Source: a virus
Reading direction: 5' to 3' (one strand)
DNA: 32,081 nt
IMG/VR virus record: IMGVR_UViG_3300050342_000061
Span: 1 to 32,081 of that record
This document shows, piece by piece, positions 7,660 to 30,833 of this stretch. The notes beneath the pieces were generated by a model. That model was given only the letters and a program-made list of their open reading frames with translations, was not told the origin of the DNA and ran no database searches. Position 1 is the first letter of the stretch, and every line of letters begins with the position of its first letter. The translations under genes were made by a program, and so were the position numbers.

Positions 7660-9051
7660 TTATTGCCCCAATTTAGTTATTTTTTCTATTTCTTCTGGTG
7701 TTAATTCCTCTGATGATTTCCCCTTCGTTGTTGTTCTAGGTTTTATTACCTTTCCCCACTCCCATTCACCCATCCATTGCCAATAGGGGAATGCCGCTTC
7801 AAATTCATTTACTGTTCCTCCCAATGCTATCCATCGTTTTCTTGCCTCTAACCAATCTTCTGCTGATACATATCCATCTTTTCCTCTTCTACTTTCAAGG
7901 AATGCTTGAATTAATGCTATTCTTTGATCATCTCCCATTTTTCCTCTTGCTTTTTCTTCTAAAATTCTTCTAATTTCTGGAGGTGTTACATCTCGATAAG
8001 TTTTAGTCTTTGGATCGTATTCAATTACAAAATTTCCAACAGTAAACCTAACAGGTGCCATTGCTTCATAAATCGTCTCATACAATCCTGCCTGTTTTAA
8101 AAGATTTTCTAATCTTTGTTGTTGTTCTTTTAACCATCTATTGTATTCTTCTTCTCTTGCTCTCCTTTCTGCTTCTGCCAAGGCTTGTTGTGCTGCTAAA
8201 ATATCTCCTGCTGCAGCTTGTTCTAATGTTGCTCTTTCTCTTGCTTGCCTTTCTCTTTCTTCTCCTAATGCTTGAGTTACAATTCCTGGAACTCCTGCCA
8301 TTGGCCCTGCTAAAATTCCTGGTTCTGAAAATCCTGCTGCTGCATATCTTGCAATTAATCTTTGTTGTTCTTGTTGATGTTTTCTTTCTAAATCTTGAAG
8401 AGCTTTTTCATATCTTTTCTTTAATTCTTCAGTTGTTTGTTCATAAATTCCTCTCTCTTCTGGGGTTAAACCAGTCATTGGCGGTGTAGCCTGTAAAGTT
8501 TTTTCGTATGCTGCTAAAAGTTGATTCATTCTCTGAAGAAATTGTTGATATGGATCGGTAATCGTTGTTTCAGCTGGCGGCGTAGTAGCAACTCCACCTG
8601 TTGGAGTCCCACCTGTTGCTGGTGCTGGCGTTCCTCCAGCTGCAGGTTTTTGCCCAGATTTCAATAATGCAAGTAATTGAAGATTTTGTTGTGCCGTCCC
8701 TCGATAATCTTTAATTCCGTATTGTTCTGCTAATTTTTGTCTTGAAGCAAAATCGCTTGGCATTCCAATGCTTTTTAGATAATCGACAATCGAAACATCA
8801 GTGCGCAAACCTCCACTCGTGCCTGTAGTAACTTTGCTCGTTGTTTTAGTTGTTTCTTTTTGTTTTTCTGGTGCTATCGACATTCCCCCGTAAGGCGTCC
8901 AAACTACTCCTTGCTGTTGAGGAGGTAAAGTAGCGGGTTGTGGTGCTTGTTTGGGCTGAATTAAGCTCGCAACTTTTTGAGCAAGTTGTTGGGCTTGTTG
9001 TTGGGCTTGTTGAATCATTTGTCCAAGTTTTTTTAAGTCTATTGTTGCCAT
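7660..9051 (-). CDS. Gln/Ala-rich internal virion or ejection protein
   Basis: This 463-aa protein starts with a Gln-rich helix (IQQAQQQAQQLAQKVASLI). Then come a Pro/Thr linker, a compact motif IVDYLKSIGMPSDFASRQKL and YGIKDYRGTAQQNLQLLALL (about 88-130), a Gly/Thr/Pro-rich linker, and a long coiled coil (about 195-325, rich in E, R and Q). The YxGTAxQNxxLLxxL motif recurs in phage structural proteins. The low-complexity, helical character and its position just before the J-domain gene fit an ejected internal protein comparable in role to P22 gp7/gp20. No enzymatic motif is seen. Confidence 0.6.
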   Translation of the reverse strand: MATIDLKKLGQMIQQAQQQAQQLAQKVASLIQPKQAPQPATLPPQQQGVVWTPYGGMSIAPEKQKETTKTTSKVTTGTSGGLRTDVSIVDYLKSIGMPSDFASRQKLAEQYGIKDYRGTAQQNLQLLALLKSGQKPAAGGTPAPATGGTPTGGVATTPPAETTITDPYQQFLQRMNQLLAAYEKTLQATPPMTGLTPEERGIYEQTTEELKKRYEKALQDLERKHQQEQQRLIARYAAAGFSEPGILAGPMAGVPGIVTQALGEERERQARERATLEQAAAGDILAAQQALAEAERRAREEEYNRWLKEQQQRLENLLKQAGLYETIYEAMAPVRFTVGNFVIEYDPKTKTYRDVTPPEIRRILEEKARGKMGDDQRIALIQAFLESRRGKDGYVSAEDWLEARKRWIALGGTVNEFEAAFPYWQWMGEWEWGKVIKPRTTTKGKSSEELTPEEIEKITKLGQ

Positions 9052-14301: not shown

Positions 14302-14632
14302 TTATTGATTTTTGACCCGAAATCTTACTTTTATTGGATAAAATATCGCTTTCAAAACTTGCTTTATCCCTTCTAAGAAGATTGGGAATGATGAAATCTT
14401 TTCAAAATATTTCCTAATGAAAATCACAAATCCGCCGATTCTTTCAATGAATTTTCGAATAGAATTTGATAATACTCCTATTCTTTCAATAAATCCTCTA
14501 ATAAACATCGCGAACCCTCCTGTTTTACTTACAAAATTGAAAATTGCAATTGGTAAATTTAAAACCCTTTCAATTAAATTCGCTCTTTTACCCCCCAAAT
14601 AAAATTTCTCCATAAAGTGCCTCTCCAAACAT
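14302..14632 (-). CDS. Small repetitive tail-region protein, one frame break at a G6 run
   Basis: From the ATG at 14632 the frame reads MFGEALYGEILFGG and stops at GGG GGG TAA. One base fewer continues KRANLIERVLNLPIAIFNF to RFRVKNQ, 109 aa in total. The start matches the paralogue at 12535-12750. The body has three or four copies of an amphipathic unit (FIRGFIERIG, SIRKFIERIG, FIRKYFEKIS). An alternative start in the second frame (TTG at 14628 or ATG at 14613) would lose the conserved N-terminus. Function unknown. Confidence 0.55.
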
Positions 14633-18460: not shown

Positions 18461-19651
18461 TTATGCGGTTCTCTTTTCAATTCTTGAATGAGCTCCTCTG
18501 TTGCGGCAGACTAATTGCAAAGAGGTGTAGATTATAGCTTCCCATTCAGTCTTTCCGTAAGCCTTAAAGAGCCTTCCTTCGTTTCCAGGTAAGAAATCAA
18601 GATCGCTCAAAATTCCAAGAGAAAGTTCTTTGGAAGAAATGTGGAAGACGTTATCGTCTGGGCAATCATAATCAAGCACAAACTCGTGGCCCATATAATC
18701 GACTCCAACCCAACCTCCGTGCAAGACTGGTTTTTCAGTTACTTGCACTTGAGGATTGGATTTGAGCAAGCTGATGAACTTGTTGTACAAAGTCTTGTTG
18801 GCGAAAGTGTAATCTACCTTTCCTCTCTGATTTGCCTCAACGTGAGCTTTGTCAATATCAGCCAAAGTCAAAACCGTTGCTGAGGTAGGAGAATCAACAT
18901 AAGATTTCCACATTGCGTAGTTTGCAGGATTAATTCCACCATAAGTTCCAGTGCCAATTGCTGCTAACAATCCAGTCAAGCAAGTCATTGGGTTTCCATC
19001 GCCATCTAAAACATAAATTGGAGTATTATCTTCCCAAGATTGAGCGTCAGCAATTGTAACGGTATTCTTTCCAGTGTGAGCCACAACAGTAGTTGCTGCG
19101 TTAGTTCCAATCTTTATTTTTGTCCCAGGTGGCAAATAAACTGCGTAATCAATATCTCCGTTTTTTACTTCTCTTCCTTCATCAATAACTAAAGTGGTGG
19201 TGTCTGTTCCTGCGCCATCAGTGTAGAAAACTAATCTTCCATTGGAATCTGGAGCTCTCCATAATTGATAGTTCAATTGTCTTACAATCAAATCCTTCAC
19301 TCCCTCAGTTTGCATTTCCAAAGTGTCAACAACAGCCCCCTTGCCAGCATCCAAAGTGATTTTGTCAATACTGAATGAACCAGCAACCTGAATCACTTCG
19401 AAGCTGGCTTCAACTGGCTTTACTGCTCCTTTATTCAAGGTTGGAGTTGAAGTTGGCCCAAAAGTCGTAAATCCAGCAGGTAAAGCCAGTTTTACAGGGA
19501 CATAAAATTTGTTGTTGACAAACTTTTGGGGAGTGAATTTGCTCTTTGCAATCTGGTAAATCAAAGCCTCCTGCTTTACAGCATCAACCACAGCAGGTAA
19601 AATGTCTTTCTTGAGTACTGCCGCAACCTCATTCAGGGTTACGCTTGGCAT
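18461..19651 (-). CDS. Major capsid protein, HK97 fold
   Basis: The 396-aa product fits a HK97-type capsid subunit. It has an N-terminal helix (VAAVLKKDILPAVVDAVKQE), the strand VEASFEVIQVAGSFSIDKIT with its continuing spine helix GVKDLIVRQLNYQLW, an inserted beta-rich region around 130-230, and a P-domain end HEFVLDYDCPDDNVFHISSKEL. Codons are somewhat less AT-biased than in neighbouring genes, as expected for a highly expressed protein. It lies directly after the acidic scaffold-like gene and is followed by a stable hairpin. GGGTCA is 14 nt upstream of the ATG. Confidence 0.8.
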   Translation of the reverse strand: MPSVTLNEVAAVLKKDILPAVVDAVKQEALIYQIAKSKFTPQKFVNNKFYVPVKLALPAGFTTFGPTSTPTLNKGAVKPVEASFEVIQVAGSFSIDKITLDAGKGAVVDTLEMQTEGVKDLIVRQLNYQLWRAPDSNGRLVFYTDGAGTDTTTLVIDEGREVKNGDIDYAVYLPPGTKIKIGTNAATTVVAHTGKNTVTIADAQSWEDNTPIYVLDGDGNPMTCLTGLLAAIGTGTYGGINPANYAMWKSYVDSPTSATVLTLADIDKAHVEANQRGKVDYTFANKTLYNKFISLLKSNPQVQVTEKPVLHGGWVGVDYMGHEFVLDYDCPDDNVFHISSKELSLGILSDLDFLPGNEGRLFKAYGKTEWEAIIYTSLQLVCRNRGAHSRIEKRTA

Positions 19652-21113: not shown

Positions 21114-21812
21114 TTACGTTCCTATTCCGAGTTCACGCTCCCTGAGTCGTCTGAGGGCTCTCTCTAATGCTCCTGTTGGTCCAAATGGTGTTGCTCCTGG
21201 TAATGGTGTTGGAACATATCTTCCACCAGTAAGTTCAGCTAAAGCTCTAATCATTGCCTCAAATTGTCCAACTGGAATTTCAGGTCTTGGTGAAGGAATT
21301 CCTGTAAAGGCTCTTTCTGAAATTTGAACTGGTGCTGGTGGTAAAGAAGATAAAGTCGGTGCTGTAAATCCTGGCGCTGTTGCTGGCGGTGTTGGCGCTC
21401 CACCTCCTCCTGCTACTGGCGGTGGCGTTGGCGGTGGAGGAGTTGGAGTTGGTGTTGGCGCTGGTTTTGCTGTCGTTATTTCTGCCTTTGGAACTGAAGC
21501 AGGAGTGGGAACTTTTGTAGTTTCGGTTGCTTTTGTCGTTGGCCTTCCAAACACATATTCAGGTCTTACTGACATTCCTTCCATAAATCCAACTGCTGGC
21601 GCCGCTGGTGCCTGTCCTGGTTCAGCTTGTGCTGTTTCCACTTGTGGTCCCGAAGGAGTAAATTTTGCTCCTGCTAACAATAAAGCTGGCGAAGCTAATA
21701 AATATTGAGGAGATGTAACGCTTCTTGGACCTAAATAACCTCCAGGGGTTGTAAATCCTTGCACTATTCGTTTAAGCGCATCACTTAAACTTCTTAAAGA
21801 AAAACTTGGCAT
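21114..21812 (-). CDS. Pro/Ala/Thr-rich virion-associated protein
   Basis: This 232-aa protein has a short N-terminal region (FSLRSLSDALKRIVQGF), a long low-complexity linker (TPTPTPPPPTPPPVAGGGG), and a C-terminal segment with IPVGQFEAMIRALAELTGG and ALERALRRLRERELGIG. The composition suggests an extended tether. Position between the portal block and the scaffold suggests a head or portal-associated minor protein. Its ATG carries GGGTCA 12 nt upstream, and the plus-strand promoter at 21814-21842 overlaps this leader. Confidence 0.5.
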   Translation of the reverse strand: MPSFSLRSLSDALKRIVQGFTTPGGYLGPRSVTSPQYLLASPALLLAGAKFTPSGPQVETAQAEPGQAPAAPAVGFMEGMSVRPEYVFGRPTTKATETTKVPTPASVPKAEITTAKPAPTPTPTPPPPTPPPVAGGGGAPTPPATAPGFTAPTLSSLPPAPVQISERAFTGIPSPRPEIPVGQFEAMIRALAELTGGRYVPTPLPGATPFGPTGALERALRRLRERELGIGT

Positions 21813-21848: not shown

Positions 21849-22064
21849 ATGATGCGAAAAATTTGGAATGTAATTTATCATTTTATTTTTTTCTTCGCTT
21901 GTTGGTATTTTTTCCTATTGTTTTTAGGATTTCTTTTTCATGCTTTAAACTTCTTTCCTTTAAAAAACATTATTAATCCTTTTTCTCCATTACAGGTTTT
22001 TGCTCTTGAGTTTCTTCCTCCCCTTCTCTTCACCTATCTTTATTTTCAACTCCGAAAAAAATAA
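21849..22064 (+). CDS. Possible small two-span membrane protein, opposite strand
   Basis: A 71-aa frame begins ATGATG directly after the promoter-like pair at 21814-21842. It encodes two hydrophobic spans (about 10-36, FIFFFACWYFFLLFLGFLF; about 48-67, LQVFALEFLPPLLFTYLYF) with basic residues at both ends (MMRKIW, LRKK). Unlike other plus-strand frames in the window it does not face a minus-strand gene: nothing else codes in 21813-22054. It could be a moron-type or superinfection-exclusion membrane protein. The Phe/Leu richness could also be a by-product of A/T bias, so the call is tentative. Confidence 0.4.
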   Translation: MMRKIWNVIYHFIFFFACWYFFLLFLGFLFHALNFFPLKNIINPFSPLQVFALEFLPPLLFTYLYFQLRKK

Positions 22065-22086
22065 AAGAGGCACCTTTTAATGCCTC
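22055..22086 (-). terminator. Intrinsic terminator of leader RNA copy 1
   Basis: A 6-bp stem GAGGCA/TGCCTC with an 8-nt loop is followed on the minus strand by TTTTATTTTTTT. It ends the short RNA started at about 22122, unless transcription reads through into 21812 and beyond. Confidence 0.7.
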
Positions 22087-22122
22087 TCGTGGAGAAGCCA
22101 AGAGCACTTGGCGCTTGGCTAT
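22055..22122 (-). ncRNA. Two-hairpin leader or small RNA, copy 1
   Basis: The predicted 65-68 nt RNA starts near 22122. Hairpin 1 has stem GCCAAG/CTTGGC (22097-22119) with CCAAGTG exposed. The linker TCTCCACG (22088-22095) follows, then hairpin 2, GAGGCA/TGCCTC (22067-22086), and a T-run. Copy 2 at 24735-24801 has different stem sequences but the same loop, linker and order, which is the covariation expected of a functional RNA. It lies ahead of the scaffold/capsid block. It may act as a terminator-attenuator, an antitermination signal or a free small RNA. Confidence 0.7.
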
Positions 22123-22128
22123 TATTTT

Positions 22129-22156
22129 ATTTTAATTTTCCAAAATTCCTTGTCAA
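22129..22156 (-). promoter_or_regulatory. Promoter of leader RNA copy 1
   Basis: TTGACA, 16-base spacer, TAAAAT on the minus strand. Spacer length, boxes and distance to the first hairpin equal those of copy 2. Confidence 0.7.
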
Positions 22157-22160
22157 GAGC

Positions 22161-22349
22161 TTATTTTTTACTTGCCGCTCTTTTCATTGCTGAACTTGAA
22201 AAAGTCGGTTTCCATCCTGATTCAATTCCATATAAAAGCCTCATCTGGCGAACTGCCTTTTCTTTTGTATCGTGCGTTCCTTTAACTTTGCCAGTCTCTT
22301 TATTAATCACAACCCATTTATTTCCTCTTTTTCTGACAGCGTATGGCAT
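22161..22349 (-). CDS. Small basic phage protein, beta-beta-alpha type
   Basis: This 62-aa product reads YAVRKRGNKWVVINKETGKV, GTHDTKEKAVRQMRLLYGIE, then a Ser/Lys tail. Two strands followed by a helix with T-K-E-K-A-x-x-Q-x-R-x-L-Y is a common small phage protein, usually near the portal or capsid genes and of unknown function. GGGTCA lies 10 nt before the ATG. It is the last gene before promoter copy 1. Confidence 0.6.
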   Translation of the reverse strand: MPYAVRKRGNKWVVINKETGKVKGTHDTKEKAVRQMRLLYGIESGWKPTFSSSAMKRAASKK

Positions 22350-22351
22350 TT

Positions 22352-22678
22352 TTAATCTCTGACCCGATAACTTCCTGCGGAATCTTCTTCAATTTGTTTT
22401 CTCGTTTTTCTTTTCTTTCCTTTTAAATCCACAATTTCAAAATCAACTTTTTCTTCGCTAATTCCTGTAATTCTTAAATTCGCTTTTATTATATCACCAA
22501 CTTTTGCATCTTTCAATGCAGGAAATTTTTTTAATGAAATCGTTAAAGTAGCCTCCGAAGTTTCCGCAGGTTTTTCTGTTGTTTCCTCTTCTGTTTCGCT
22601 TTCTGGTTCTTCTTCAACTACTTCCTCTGGCGCTTCTTCAAATTCTTCATCTAAATCTGATTCAATTTCTTTTGGCAT
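22352..22678 (-). CDS. Acidic protein with small C-terminal beta domain
   Basis: The start is set at the ATG for MPKEIESDL, which has GGGTCA 11 nt upstream at the end of the portal gene; a longer upstream start would read through the portal end. The 108-aa product has residues 1-45 that are almost all Glu/Asp, then ATLTISLKKFPALKDAKVGD, IIKANLRITGISEEKVDFEI. The Glu-rich arm plus an OB-like barrel is reminiscent of DNA-mimic or capsid accessory proteins, but no family is assigned. Confidence 0.55.
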   Translation of the reverse strand: MPKEIESDLDEEFEEAPEEVVEEEPESETEEETTEKPAETSEATLTISLKKFPALKDAKVGDIIKANLRITGISEEKVDFEIVDLKGKKRKTRKQIEEDSAGSYRVRD

Positions 22679-22682
22679 ATTT

Positions 22683-24398
22683 TTATGTTTGACCCAATAA
22701 TTCTTGTAAAACTCTTCGTTTTGTTTCATCGGATAATTTTTGGAAGTCGTCAGCATCTAAAACGCTTGTTATTTTTCCTTGTTGAATTTTTTCTTCTTTT
22801 TCCATTTCCTCTAAGGCTCTTTGTGCAATTTCTTCAGTATCGCCACCAAGATTTAAAATTTCAAGCGCTGTCTTTCTATCAATCAACTTTGCTTTTGCCA
22901 ATTCAATTGCCAGTGCTCTTTTTGCCTCTGTTGTATAAGCCAAACCACTTTCAATTGAAACATCAATCCCAAAATCTGTATCTGAAACTGGAATTGCATT
23001 TGCATAACCTCCTGCATATTGTGCGCCTACAATTTCAAAATATTCGTCTTTATATTTTGCCTCAATTGGCGTTGTACCAAAGTAATAAATTAACATAAGA
23101 GTGGTTTCCCCGAGCCTTTCTAAAGTTCCTTCTAATTTCCTTACTCCGTGCTGAATTGAAGAAATTTCTGCTGATTTTAAACTCTCAATTAATTTATAAC
23201 CAACTTTCGCTCCTTTTGGAACTCTTCCCATTGCTGCAGTTGCTGCTGCAGTTTCTCCCATTAAAGATTTTAATTCATTCAAAAAGTTGAAAACCGTTCC
23301 CCCAATCTCTTGAACTTTTAACCAAGCAATTGAATCTAATGGTCCATTAACTTCGATAATTTCTCCGTGTTCTCCTAAAATTCTATTCACGTTAACTGTC
23401 TTTTGCTTTAGCATTCTCCCAACTGCTACGCTTCTTACCCAAGCCTCAATTTGTGCTAAGGTGATATCTAATGCGCGGTTTAAAGGAATCATTCTCTCTA
23501 CAAAAGAAGTTTGTAATAAAGTTTCTGGTAAAAAGCTCCAACTTACAAATGGCGGTCTCCTAAAATCATAATGCTCTTCAAACAAAATTTTCTTTTGGCA
23601 AATATGAATTACGTCCCAACCACCATTTGGATTTTCAATCCAGCATTCTCTTATTAAAACTTTTTTCTCTGCGAGTTTTCCGCCGAATCTCTCTTTTAAT
23701 TGAGTTTCTTTGAAGGAAGAACCTGAAATTTTATTTTCCTCTTTTAATTCAAATCGGTTTTCGTTGTAGTTTGGATTTGCCTTTACTCTTTCCAAATCCA
23801 CCGCCACTTCTTTTATGATGTATGGCGAATCCTGAATATCTTTAACTGTTGGATCAAATAAAATATCAAAGTTATCAATCACTCTAAATTTTGGTTTTCC
23901 ATCCCAATAAATTTCAATTACGCCAAAACCATATTTAATTCCATTCCATACCATTTCTGAAAGTTTTTCTCTTAAATTTTCAGCATCGAACAAATTGTCA
24001 AAAAATGCCGCAATTTTCTTTGTGTTTTCAATTTTTCTTTTTCTCTCTTCCTCGTCTTTAATTTGACTTAAACCAATAGGAAAAACCTTCCAGCGTGGAT
24101 CTGATGCCAAAAGCGTATTCATTATTCCCTCTGCAACTCGAATTGCATAGTGAATTGGTCGAACATTAATTCCTTTTGGGAATACAACTTTTCCAATTTC
24201 ATTTGTTGCTGGTCTCCAGATTTCAAAATGATTCCCTCTCAAAAATCTATCTATCAAATACCAGCGCTTCTCATGATTTTGTCTTTCTTTTCTTAATTCA
24301 TCGGCTAATGTATCTAATTCTTTTACTTTTTCTTCTGGAGATTTTTCTTCTTTAACCTCTTCGAGAATTTTTTGAATTGTTTCCAAACTTTCTGCCAT
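22683..24398 (-). CDS. Portal protein, podovirus (P22-like) type
   Basis: In this 571-aa protein residues 25-60 (LADELRKERQNHEKRWYLID) begin the stem region, followed by RPIHYAIRVAEGIMNTLLAS, IKYGFGVIEIYWDGKPKFRV, DNFDILFDPTVKDIQDSPYI (typical of the D-P-x-a-x-d-x-x-D-a wing strands) and the crown-side helix ETAAATAAMGRVPKGAKVGY. The dodecameric portal is the DNA entry and exit channel and the docking site for terminase. The length and pattern fit the P22/podovirus portal group rather than the shorter HK97 one. The end overlaps the GGGTCA motif of the next gene. Confidence 0.8.
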   Translation of the reverse strand: MAESLETIQKILEEVKEEKSPEEKVKELDTLADELRKERQNHEKRWYLIDRFLRGNHFEIWRPATNEIGKVVFPKGINVRPIHYAIRVAEGIMNTLLASDPRWKVFPIGLSQIKDEEERKRKIENTKKIAAFFDNLFDAENLREKLSEMVWNGIKYGFGVIEIYWDGKPKFRVIDNFDILFDPTVKDIQDSPYIIKEVAVDLERVKANPNYNENRFELKEENKISGSSFKETQLKERFGGKLAEKKVLIRECWIENPNGGWDVIHICQKKILFEEHYDFRRPPFVSWSFLPETLLQTSFVERMIPLNRALDITLAQIEAWVRSVAVGRMLKQKTVNVNRILGEHGEIIEVNGPLDSIAWLKVQEIGGTVFNFLNELKSLMGETAAATAAMGRVPKGAKVGYKLIESLKSAEISSIQHGVRKLEGTLERLGETTLMLIYYFGTTPIEAKYKDEYFEIVGAQYAGGYANAIPVSDTDFGIDVSIESGLAYTTEAKRALAIELAKAKLIDRKTALEILNLGGDTEEIAQRALEEMEKEEKIQQGKITSVLDADDFQKLSDETKRRVLQELLGQT

Positions 24399-24399
24399 A

Positions 24400-24639
24400 T
24401 TATTTCTTTAAAGCCTCTAAAAGTTTTTCAGCGGGAGCTTCCTCAATTGGAACGACCTCTTCCTCTTCTTTTTCCGTTTCTTCTTCTTTTGGTTTTTCTA
24501 TTGCGCTTTTGAATTCAAAAATATCCTTTGAAAGTTTTGATGCTAAAATTTCTTTTATGATTTCTTGATGTTGTTTTTCCTTGTAAAAGAGAAAACCGAT
24601 TAAAGCCAAAATTATTGCGGTTTCTAAAATTTCTGTCAT
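24400..24639 (-). CDS. Small membrane-anchored acidic protein
   Basis: This 79-aa product has one N-terminal membrane segment (ILETAIILALIGFLFYKEK), a short charged helix, and an acidic tail (KPKEEETEKEEEEVVPIEEA). It lies directly before the portal gene, 1 nt from its start, and follows the GC-rich folded leader at 24653-24720. Its role is unknown; anchoring portal assembly at the membrane is speculative. Confidence 0.5.
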   Translation of the reverse strand: MTEILETAIILALIGFLFYKEKQHQEIIKEILASKLSKDIFEFKSAIEKPKEEETEKEEEEVVPIEEAPAEKLLEALKK

Positions 24640-24652
24640 AATTTTTTTATTA

Positions 24653-24720
24653 GCCCCCCAAAACCGCTCTCAGGGGTGGGTCAGGCCCCTTTCAACGAGC
24701 GGGTCGACCTTTCGGGGGGC
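24653..24720 (-). promoter_or_regulatory. Nested three-stem RNA leader before the portal block
   Basis: Three nested stems can form: GCCCCCC/GGGGGGC (outer, 7 bp), CCGCTC/GAGCGG (middle, 6 bp) and AGGGG/CCCCT (inner, 5 bp), separated by internal loops. It is about two thirds G+C in an AT-rich genome and ends 14 nt before the ATG at 24639. It would be transcribed only by read-through of the terminator at 24735-24763 or from further upstream. A regulatory leader is likely; no known riboswitch class is recognised. Confidence 0.6.
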
Positions 24721-24734
24721 AAATTTTTGACCTT

Positions 24735-24763
24735 TAAATAAAAAAGGGCGCTCTTTTGCGCCT
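24735..24763 (-). terminator. Intrinsic terminator of leader RNA copy 2
   Basis: A 5-bp GC stem plus one G-T wobble pair, with a 6-nt loop, is followed on the minus strand by CTTTTTTATTT. Confidence 0.75.
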
Positions 24764-24801
24764 CACGTGGAGAGGATAGAAACACTTGGTTTCTATCCGT
24801 T
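24735..24801 (-). ncRNA. Two-hairpin leader or small RNA, copy 2
   Basis: The predicted 64-67 nt RNA starts near 24801. Hairpin 1 is a perfect 10-bp stem GGATAGAAAC/GTTTCTATCC (24774-24798) with CAAGT in the loop. The linker TCTCCACG (24766-24773) follows, then hairpin 2, GGCGC/GCGCC (24747-24762), and a T-run. Stems differ from copy 1 while single-stranded parts match. It is located before the portal block. Confidence 0.7.
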
Positions 24802-24807
24802 ATTCTA

Positions 24808-24835
24808 ATTTTAATTTTTTAAGAAACTCTGTCAA
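24808..24835 (-). promoter_or_regulatory. Promoter of leader RNA copy 2
   Basis: TTGACA, 16-base spacer, TAAAAT on the minus strand, overlapping the end of the zinc-finger gene. It has the same architecture as copy 1. Confidence 0.7.
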
Positions 24836-25037
24836 GTCTTAATCCTATTGAAATATCTTGTGAACTCTTTAACATTCTCCCGCAATGTGGACATTTCATT
24901 TCCATCAAAAACAAGGTATAAATCGGTTCTCTTGTAATAAAAAGTTTGTAATTGCAATACCTGCAATAAATTTCGAATTTTCGATCAATACTCGTAGTCT
25001 TCTTTGAATTCAAATTGTTCTGATTCTCCACTAACAT
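24819..25037 (-). CDS. Com-like zinc-finger protein
   Basis: This 72-aa product has two CxxC pairs, IYCRYCNYKLF and MKCPHCGRML, 24 residues apart. It resembles the small Com regulator family, in which a zinc finger binds mRNA to relieve translational inhibition of a following gene. It overlaps the terminase end by 53 nt in another frame. Its stop lies inside the promoter of leader RNA copy 2. Function as an RNA-binding regulator is plausible but unproven. Confidence 0.6.
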   Translation of the reverse strand: MLVENQNNLNSKKTTSIDRKFEIYCRYCNYKLFITREPIYTLFLMEMKCPHCGRMLKSSQDISIGLRLDRVS

Positions 25038-28694: not shown

Positions 28695-28723
28695 ATAAAA
28701 AAGGGAGAGAGAAAATTTCTCCC
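28695..28723 (-). terminator. Intrinsic terminator after the metallopeptidase
   Basis: GGGAGA and TCTCCC form a 6-bp stem with a 9-nt loop and are followed on the minus strand by TTTTTTAT. The tRNA-like element begins directly after it, so that element would need read-through or processing. Confidence 0.7.
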
Positions 28724-28846: not shown

Positions 28847-29305
28847 CTATTCTACTGGCCCATTTCCTGAATGGTATCTATCCACTTTTAATAGTTGGCA
28901 AAGTATCCTTGATAAACTTTCAACTACTGATTCTTCGGCTTCTTTAATCATTTGTGCCTCTTGCATAGTAATTCTATCTTGGAAGTATCTTATTTTGTCA
29001 GCGATTATTCCTACTTTGACGTGAAGTAGTTCGTGTGAAATTATGCTGTCAAACCATTCAATTTGAATCTCGTTTGAAATCCAAATTATTGCTTGTAGAT
29101 AGATATAATCAGCTAAAACTTCAGCAATGTGGTCTTCAGGAAGTTTTTCTGGTGAAACTATTTCCACGCTGATGTTCCAATCTTCGAGTTTTAGCAACCT
29201 TCTCCAGAAGTTTATTGTTTTCAAAAGTGCTTTTGCGAATTCTTTTTCGTCATAACTTGTCGGTTTTTCATCATATTTAATTTCTACTTTCTTGGAACGT
29301 GCCAC
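28847..29305 (-). CDS. HEXXH zinc metallopeptidase
   Basis: This 152-aa protein starts at a GTG with a strong GGGGAGGTGG site 5 nt upstream, which decides the start. DSIISHELLHVKVG holds the zinc motif HELLH (91-95). The later acidic helix KEAEESVVESLSRI could supply the third ligand (E125 or E129). Small phage HEXXH proteins of this size are usually uncharacterised, and anti-host or wall-related roles are possible. Its ribosome site is buried in the hairpin at 29311-29351, so translation probably depends on the gene upstream. Confidence 0.75.
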   Translation of the reverse strand: MARSKKVEIKYDEKPTSYDEKEFAKALLKTINFWRRLLKLEDWNISVEIVSPEKLPEDHIAEVLADYIYLQAIIWISNEIQIEWFDSIISHELLHVKVGIIADKIRYFQDRITMQEAQMIKEAEESVVESLSRILCQLLKVDRYHSGNGPVE

Positions 29306-30137: not shown

Positions 30138-30595
30138 TATTTCGTGATTTTTATTAATTCTTTCTCAATACAATCTTTTGTGCGCCAAGGTTTTAATCCT
30201 TCTTTCAATAGAATTTTGGCTGCCAATTCTGTTGAAAGTCGTGGATCTATGATATCTTTTAACGATTTCGCTCCGTATTGTTTTGATGTTTCCAAATTAA
30301 TCTGATAAAGTCCGCCATCTTGCGTTTTATTCCAGCCAAAAACCGTCCCCCCCTCGCATCGAATAATTGCCTCGAACGTCTCTTTTCGAATTCCATATTT
30401 TTCGCTTGCTTCTTGGATTGCAATTTCGATAATTCTTGGATCATCTAATTCAACTGGAACTAAAACTGGTTTTTCTACTATAATTTGTTTTTTGGTTCCC
30501 ATTTCGTATCCCACAGTCGCCCAACCGAAAAGTCCTGCTAAAACTATTATGAAGAACAAAATTTCCTTTATTCTATTTTTGATTCTTGGGCTCAT
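30137..30595 (-). CDS. Membrane-anchored lytic transglycosylase-like muramidase
   Basis: In this 152-aa protein residues 10-30 form an N-terminal membrane segment (signal-anchor, KEILFFIIVLAGLFGWATV). The catalytic region has FEAIIRCEGG with candidate acid E81, then QDGGLYQINLETSKQYG, the G-x-Y/M-Q-I-N block of goose-type/SLT lysozyme folds, and DPRLSTELAAKILL. It would cleave peptidoglycan glycan strands. The anchor suggests a signal-arrest-release endolysin or a virion-associated entry enzyme. It overlaps the KH gene by 23 nt. Confidence 0.7.
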   Translation of the reverse strand: MSPRIKNRIKEILFFIIVLAGLFGWATVGYEMGTKKQIIVEKPVLVPVELDDPRIIEIAIQEASEKYGIRKETFEAIIRCEGGTVFGWNKTQDGGLYQINLETSKQYGAKSLKDIIDPRLSTELAAKILLKEGLKPWRTKDCIEKELIKITK

Positions 30596-30833
30596 TTTCT
30601 TCTTTGATCTTTAAATAAACTGCTTGTTTATTTTTTGTGCCAATCTTTCTGGCAATCGTTAATAATGCTCGAAAAGTTGAGCCTTTTTTACCGATGATAT
30701 ATTTTCGATCACTGGGATCGCATTCAATCTCGTAAATCATTCCCATTTCGGTTAATTTTTCGTTTATTTTGACCTTTTCGGGGTTTAGAACTAATCCCCG
30801 AGTTATAATTTCTAATACGTCTTTTGTCTTCAT
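30573..30833 (-). CDS. KH-domain RNA-binding protein (KhpA-like)
   Basis: This 86-aa product has a KH core with YIIGKKGSTFRALLTIARKI, in which GKKG (48-51) is the GxxG nucleic-acid-binding loop, preceded by the beta strand MIYEIECDP. This is close to the bacterial KhpA family, which binds single-stranded RNA. Phage copies are unusual. The overlap with the transglycosylase start puts it in a membrane/lysis-type early block. It could act on the motif-bearing transcripts or leader RNAs, but there is no direct evidence. Confidence 0.75.
   Translation of the reverse strand: MKTKDVLEIITRGLVLNPEKVKINEKLTEMGMIYEIECDPSDRKYIIGKKGSTFRALLTIARKIGTKNKQAVYLKIKEENEPKNQK

Follow-up and report, generated by a model that had tools for sequence, protein, structure and literature searches.

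Two promoters that lead directly into terminators

How can a phage serve its structural genes from promoters that are directly followed by a terminator? The question is raised by two short regions on the minus strand of a virus record that is 32,081 bases long, is classified as linear and has a G+C content of 35%; it was analyzed over its full length (the window). This strand carries large ORFs with matches to known families, among them a terminase, a portal, a head protein, an integrase and a replication protein. A sequence-only reading had described the same minus-strand architecture in both regions, and we recovered the two modules, called A and B, at these positions and in register. Each presents, in the same order, TTGACA, a 16-nt spacer, TAAAAT, a 10-position hairpin with the loop CAAGT (hairpin 1), TCTCCACG, and an intrinsic terminator (hairpin 2), which directly follows the promoter.

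The promoter of module A (22129..22156, minus strand) matches the consensus at 11/12 positions, with the −35 element TTGACA at 22156-22151 and, beyond the 16-nt spacer, the −10 element TAAAAT at 22134-22129. Its intrinsic terminator with the T-rich tail occupies 22055..22088 on the same strand and overlaps the constant block described below; the stem-loop spans 22088-22065, and the tail reaches 22055. The promoter of module B, another TTGACA-16-TAAAAT sequence with an 11/12 match (24808..24835, minus strand; −35 at 24835-24830, −10 at 24813-24808), lies within the 3′ end of the ORF at 24819-25037. Its terminator with the T-rich tail covers 24736..24762 (minus strand), the stem-loop running from 24762 to 24747 and the tail to 24736. 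The promoter region is likewise conserved between the two modules.

That the modules precede structural blocks, as had been proposed, was borne out by the ORF positions and by PHROG matches. Module B stands ahead of a 79-aa ORF and the portal gene (22683..24398, minus strand; phrog_156, E 3e-12), and module A ahead of a block that contains the gene for the major head protein (18461..19651, minus strand; phrog_14242, E 8.7e-19). Both loci thus have the general anatomy of an intrinsic-terminator attenuator, i.e., a promoter, a leader and an intrinsic terminator ahead of coding genes. From the terminator of module A to the start of the gene at 21812, the minus strand has no listed promoter-like site; from module B to the portal gene, it has one, a 10/12 match that overlaps a start codon. 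Because no other strong minus-strand promoter-like site lies in between, the terminators must be passed if the two promoters serve the structural genes. In view of the large ORFs on the minus strand, an unconditional terminator would probably also stop transcription coming from upstream.

Paired bases change while loop and linker are kept

Hairpin 1 reads AGCCAAGCGC-CAAGT-GCTCTTGGCT in module A (22096..22120, minus strand) and GGATAGAAAC-CAAGT-GTTTCTATCC in module B (24774..24798, minus strand). The 6-bp stem initially attributed to copy A proved too short, as the hairpin comprises 10 positions with one mismatch; that of copy B also has 10 positions. The two copies do have the same loop, but the form CCAAGTG first given for it counted the closing pair, and the loop proper is CAAGT. 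Similarly, the linker (22095-22088 in module A and 24773-24766 in module B, minus strand) is fixed as claimed, but the fixed sequence extends past TCTCCACG to TCTCCACGnGAGGC. The constant block, TCTCCACGAGAGGC in module A (22082..22095, minus strand) and TCTCCACGTGAGGC in module B (24760..24773, minus strand), is identical between the modules at 13 of its 14 positions. From hairpin 1 through the terminator, the two copies align without a gap.

Six of the 10 pairs of hairpin 1 are changed on both sides between the copies, three are unchanged, and one is broken in module A (C.U). In hairpin 2, one pair is changed on both sides and two on one side, three are unchanged, and three are unpaired in module B; a GGC/GCC core is common to both. 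For hairpin 1, with its six pairs, the argument from different paired bases is strong; it is weak for hairpin 2, because the constant block (GAGGC) includes the 5′ arm of the terminator, which the copies share. Module B retains the A of GAGGC although this base is unpaired in its terminator. Over the two hairpins, seven both-sided changes were observed versus 0 to 2 in slid controls, and the loop CAAGT and TCTCCACGnGAGGC remained fixed across all seven. The RNA shape is real, because the paired bases differ between the copies yet pair in both.

The predicted RNA folding energies of the two modules correspond to z scores of −4.4 and −4.7 relative to shuffles. The pattern CCAAGTGN{5,14}TCTCCACG has two matches in the window and none in 100 shuffles. 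We also scored the ensemble against 300 randomized windows, requiring an exact TTGACA, a near-consensus −10 element, a stem of at least 9 and a terminator; this promoter-hairpin-linker-terminator architecture has two occurrences in the window, whereas none of the 300 first-order Markov windows contains it. Modules A and B are related to each other, and such shuffle counts are therefore not probabilities. A lone hairpin with 10 bp and a 5-nt loop is not rare in the window (four with at least 9/10 pairs, 3.1 expected), and the significance stems from the repeated ensemble, not from the lone hairpin. A looser version of the architecture occurred 17 times in 2.8 Mb of sequence, including the two in the window and, outside it, some that are copies of one locus, versus twice in a reversed control. 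A search of the window for a third copy found none. All of the evidence, including the covariation, comes from two copies in a single genome; together, the folding z scores, the both-sided pair changes and the count of 0 in 300 randomized windows support the earlier view that the RNA structure of the modules is selected.

Searches for related modules

The modules match no Rfam family at or above the gathering score. Single-protein searches with the portal and the terminase in IMG/VR and GTDB returned nothing. The terminase of the window has relatives in IMG/VR at 30-43% identity; in the tests made, these have few or no other genes in common with the window phage, and the distant terminase-related phages gave no module match of note. 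Among the 119 IMG/VR matches listed for the pattern CCAAGTGN{6,14}TCTCCACG, a few have 8-9 pairable positions beside CAAGT, but no terminator with a T-run follows any of them, and they resemble chance occurrences. Tighter DNA patterns yielded zero matches in IMG/VR and 14 in the GTDB species genomes, which were judged to be chance, and the 108 matches to a promoter-loop pattern all lack the linker. A covariance-model search, suggested earlier as a check, was run on fetched loci and gave chance matches only, with no positive control outside the window. No counterpart of the module was found in IMG/VR and the GTDB species genomes, as searched with DNA patterns that required exact letters.

Other signals in the window

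The sequence GGGTC(A/G) is found 15-21 nt ahead of the start codon in about a dozen minus-strand genes (for example, at 14318, 15627, 17278, 17706, 17912, 19671, 21830, 22365, 22695 and 26409), and there are few GGAGG-type sites. The window has 20 occurrences of GGGTCA versus 7.0 expected, 17 of the 20 being on the minus strand; the motif is not enriched in the distant terminase relatives. A G+C-rich structured leader (24722-24650, minus strand; z −3.1) lies between module B and the 79-aa ORF, and its predicted 9-nt loop, CCUGACCCA, is complementary to UGGGUCA, the motif ahead of many genes. A long hairpin with a partial GGGTCA in its loop (29375-29300, minus strand; z −3.7) lies just ahead of the ORF starting at 29305. 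Another hairpin (9097-9051, minus strand), between GGGTCC and the start codon of the ORF at 7660-9051, could shorten the distance from motif to start.

A tRNA-like cloverleaf at 28694-28625 (minus strand) scored 46.9 bits to RF00005 in a sensitive scan; neither ARAGORN nor the fast Rfam scan had picked it up. It appears to have an unusual anticodon arm, and a terminator-like site is present ahead of it at 28723. Two consensus promoters (12/12; 2025-1965 and 1001-957, minus strand) are located upstream of the integrase and of a nuclease-like ORF. The leaders that follow them share GTGGAAG, and that of 2025-1965 has a 9-bp hairpin without a terminator.

A possible conditional terminator and its rivals

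From the sequences, predicted structures, pair changes, competing pairings and gene order, we infer transcription, termination, regulation and a factor, as follows. Each module would combine a strong sigma-70-type promoter with a conditional terminator of its own ahead of a structural-gene block, and the two would serve as promoter-proximal checkpoints, by attenuation or antitermination, of two late operons. We favor this explanation, with slightly less than even confidence, because the terminators need passing if the promoters serve the structural genes. Attenuation, previously listed as an alternative to an HK022 put-type RNA, is judged the better of the two by anatomy, the terminator coming right after the promoter. 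By default, the polymerase would make a leader of ~65-70 nt and then halt at the terminator. A factor would read the fixed signals, namely, the hairpin 1 loop CAAGU and/or UCUCCACGnGAGGC, and the polymerase would then proceed into the genes; with the same signal in duplicate, the two operons would be switched together.

Locally, this could work through pairing of UCUC with GAGG beside hairpin 1, which would occupy part of the 5′ arm of the terminator; alternatively, the factor may modify the polymerase. Prefix folding predicted a hairpin in the UCUC/GAGG region of both nascent RNAs, displaced once the 3′ arm of the terminator appears. In module A, the lowest-energy form of this hairpin uses the adjacent GAGA. 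The UCUC/GAGG hairpin, with 4 bp and about −1 to −2 kcal/mol, is weak; being invariant, it has no support from covariation. We treat the switch as a hypothesis, not a finding, because the pairing is weak and never varies.

None of the NusG/LoaP (NusG/KOW), N, Q or BglG-type families was detected among the window ORFs scanned. The sole RNA-chaperone-type family among them is represented by an 86-aa KH protein of the KhpA/KhpB type (30573-30833, minus strand; Pfam E 1.9e-11, no PHROG match), which scores below the NCBIfam equivalog cut-offs; linking it to the modules is a guess. We consider it quite improbable that the modules represent a novel family of antitermination RNAs in phages, whose CAAGU loop and UCUCCACGnGAGGC would be read by a phage-encoded RNA-binding protein (e.g., the KhpA-type KH protein) that jointly opens the promoter-proximal terminators of the two late operons. 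If the conditional-terminator explanation is right, the modules are a paired RNA switch through which one fixed signal activates two late operons in the same phage, and they offer clear point changes for testing.

The weights given to the rival explanations are a matter of judgement. Small RNAs usually consist of a 5′ hairpin, a short single-stranded segment and a U-tailed terminator, and the modules are laid out in this way. They might encode sibling RNAs of 65-70 nt that end at the terminator and act in trans on host or phage mRNAs, with the fixed loop and linker serving as pairing or protein-binding sites and the stems being free to drift. The segment common to both copies amid differing stems would agree with this, as would the presence of a KhpA-type KH protein in the phage, and there is a precedent in Stx phages, whose terminated late leader (PR′-tR′) is processed into an sRNA that acts in trans, StxS (PMC7873438). 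However, the complement of the linker, CGTGGAGA, is found nowhere else in the window, the linker or loop pairs with phage gene starts no better than shuffled seeds do, and the transcription of the downstream genes is left unexplained. Trans-acting small RNAs, an alternative raised from the start, form a serious rival, albeit an unlikely one with no significant pairing near phage gene starts, and they would be compatible with conditional termination. We consider it improbable that a duplicated promoter, a leaky terminator and a 5′ stabilizing hairpin simply yield short and long RNA in a constant ratio; no factor is required in that case, and none was found among the ORFs scanned, but a fixed CAAGT loop and a block fixed at 13/14 positions amid replaced stems would have no explanation.

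Q-type systems are laid out as a late promoter, a short leader, a terminator and structural genes. Antitermination of this kind, loaded on the DNA or on polymerase at the promoter, in which the modified polymerase passes the leader and hairpin 1 only stabilizes the RNA or causes pausing, fits the layout of the modules (PMC6624301) and the conservation of the promoter region between the copies. As it does not account for a fixed CAAGT and TCTCCACGnGAGGC next to a re-paired hairpin 1, and no Q or P7-type family is present among the ORFs scanned, we deem it quite improbable. A put-like cis-acting RNA, whose nascent hairpins would bind the polymerase directly and make it resistant to terminators with no protein factor, is very improbable. 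The length, the two hairpins, the two copies per phage and the proximity to a promoter speak for it, putL sitting just downstream of PL and putRNAs being about 70 nt long (PMC9378689). However, hairpin 2 with its T-rich (in RNA, U-rich) tail scores as an intrinsic terminator, and there is no sign of a triplex or V-shape; membership in the put class, for which HK022 had been offered as the precedent, is thus unsupported.

Other candidates were set aside. One was a leader peptide: the two copies have similar short frames, with SPREA in common, that start at a GTG in the loop, but no ribosome-binding site is evident in copy A, and the frame crosses the terminator in both. A CRISPR-repeat mimic was rejected, as the stems have no repeat in common and the Rfam CRISPR match is weak, and so was a DNA operator dyad, as the dyads of the two copies differ in sequence.

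Comparison with known systems

In BglG/LicT-type RAT systems, the terminator is excluded by a small RNA hairpin overlapping its 5′ arm. The modules are alike in that a small predicted hairpin would overlap this arm; they differ in that the alternative hairpin is weak, with 4 bp, and in that the ORFs scanned include no BglG-type family. The target of the HK022 put RNA is RNA polymerase, on which it acts via the β′ zinc-binding domain. It resembles the modules in its length of about 70 nt, its two stem-loops and its two related copies per phage, but its two stems adopt a V-shaped fold that includes an RNA triplex (PMC9378689), for which the modules give no evidence, their second stem-loop being a terminator.

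LoaP recognizes a hairpin present in the leaders of two operons of Bacillus velezensis, dfn and mln, each of which also has a putative leader terminator to pass (PMC12691694). The modules similarly place a related hairpin in two leaders. In contrast, the LoaP hairpin is of the UNCG type and near-identical in its two leaders, whereas the loop is CAAGU in both modules and the stems differ. In addition, the terminator of the modules comes within 8 nt, and no NusG-like family is found among the window ORFs scanned.

With lambda Q, P7 of Xp10 (PMC6624301) and the StxS leader (PMC7873438), the modules have in common a late promoter, a short leader, a terminator and late genes. P7 lets the polymerase bypass intrinsic terminators ahead of the Xp10 late genes (PMC6624301), and StxS is an example of a terminated leader that doubles as a functional sRNA (PMC7873438). 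Q and P7 are proteins acting on the polymerase, whereas the fixed features of the modules are an RNA loop and a linker, two per phage. If the conditional-terminator explanation is right, late-gene control would here have its signal in the letters of the RNA, not only in a protein that acts on the polymerase.
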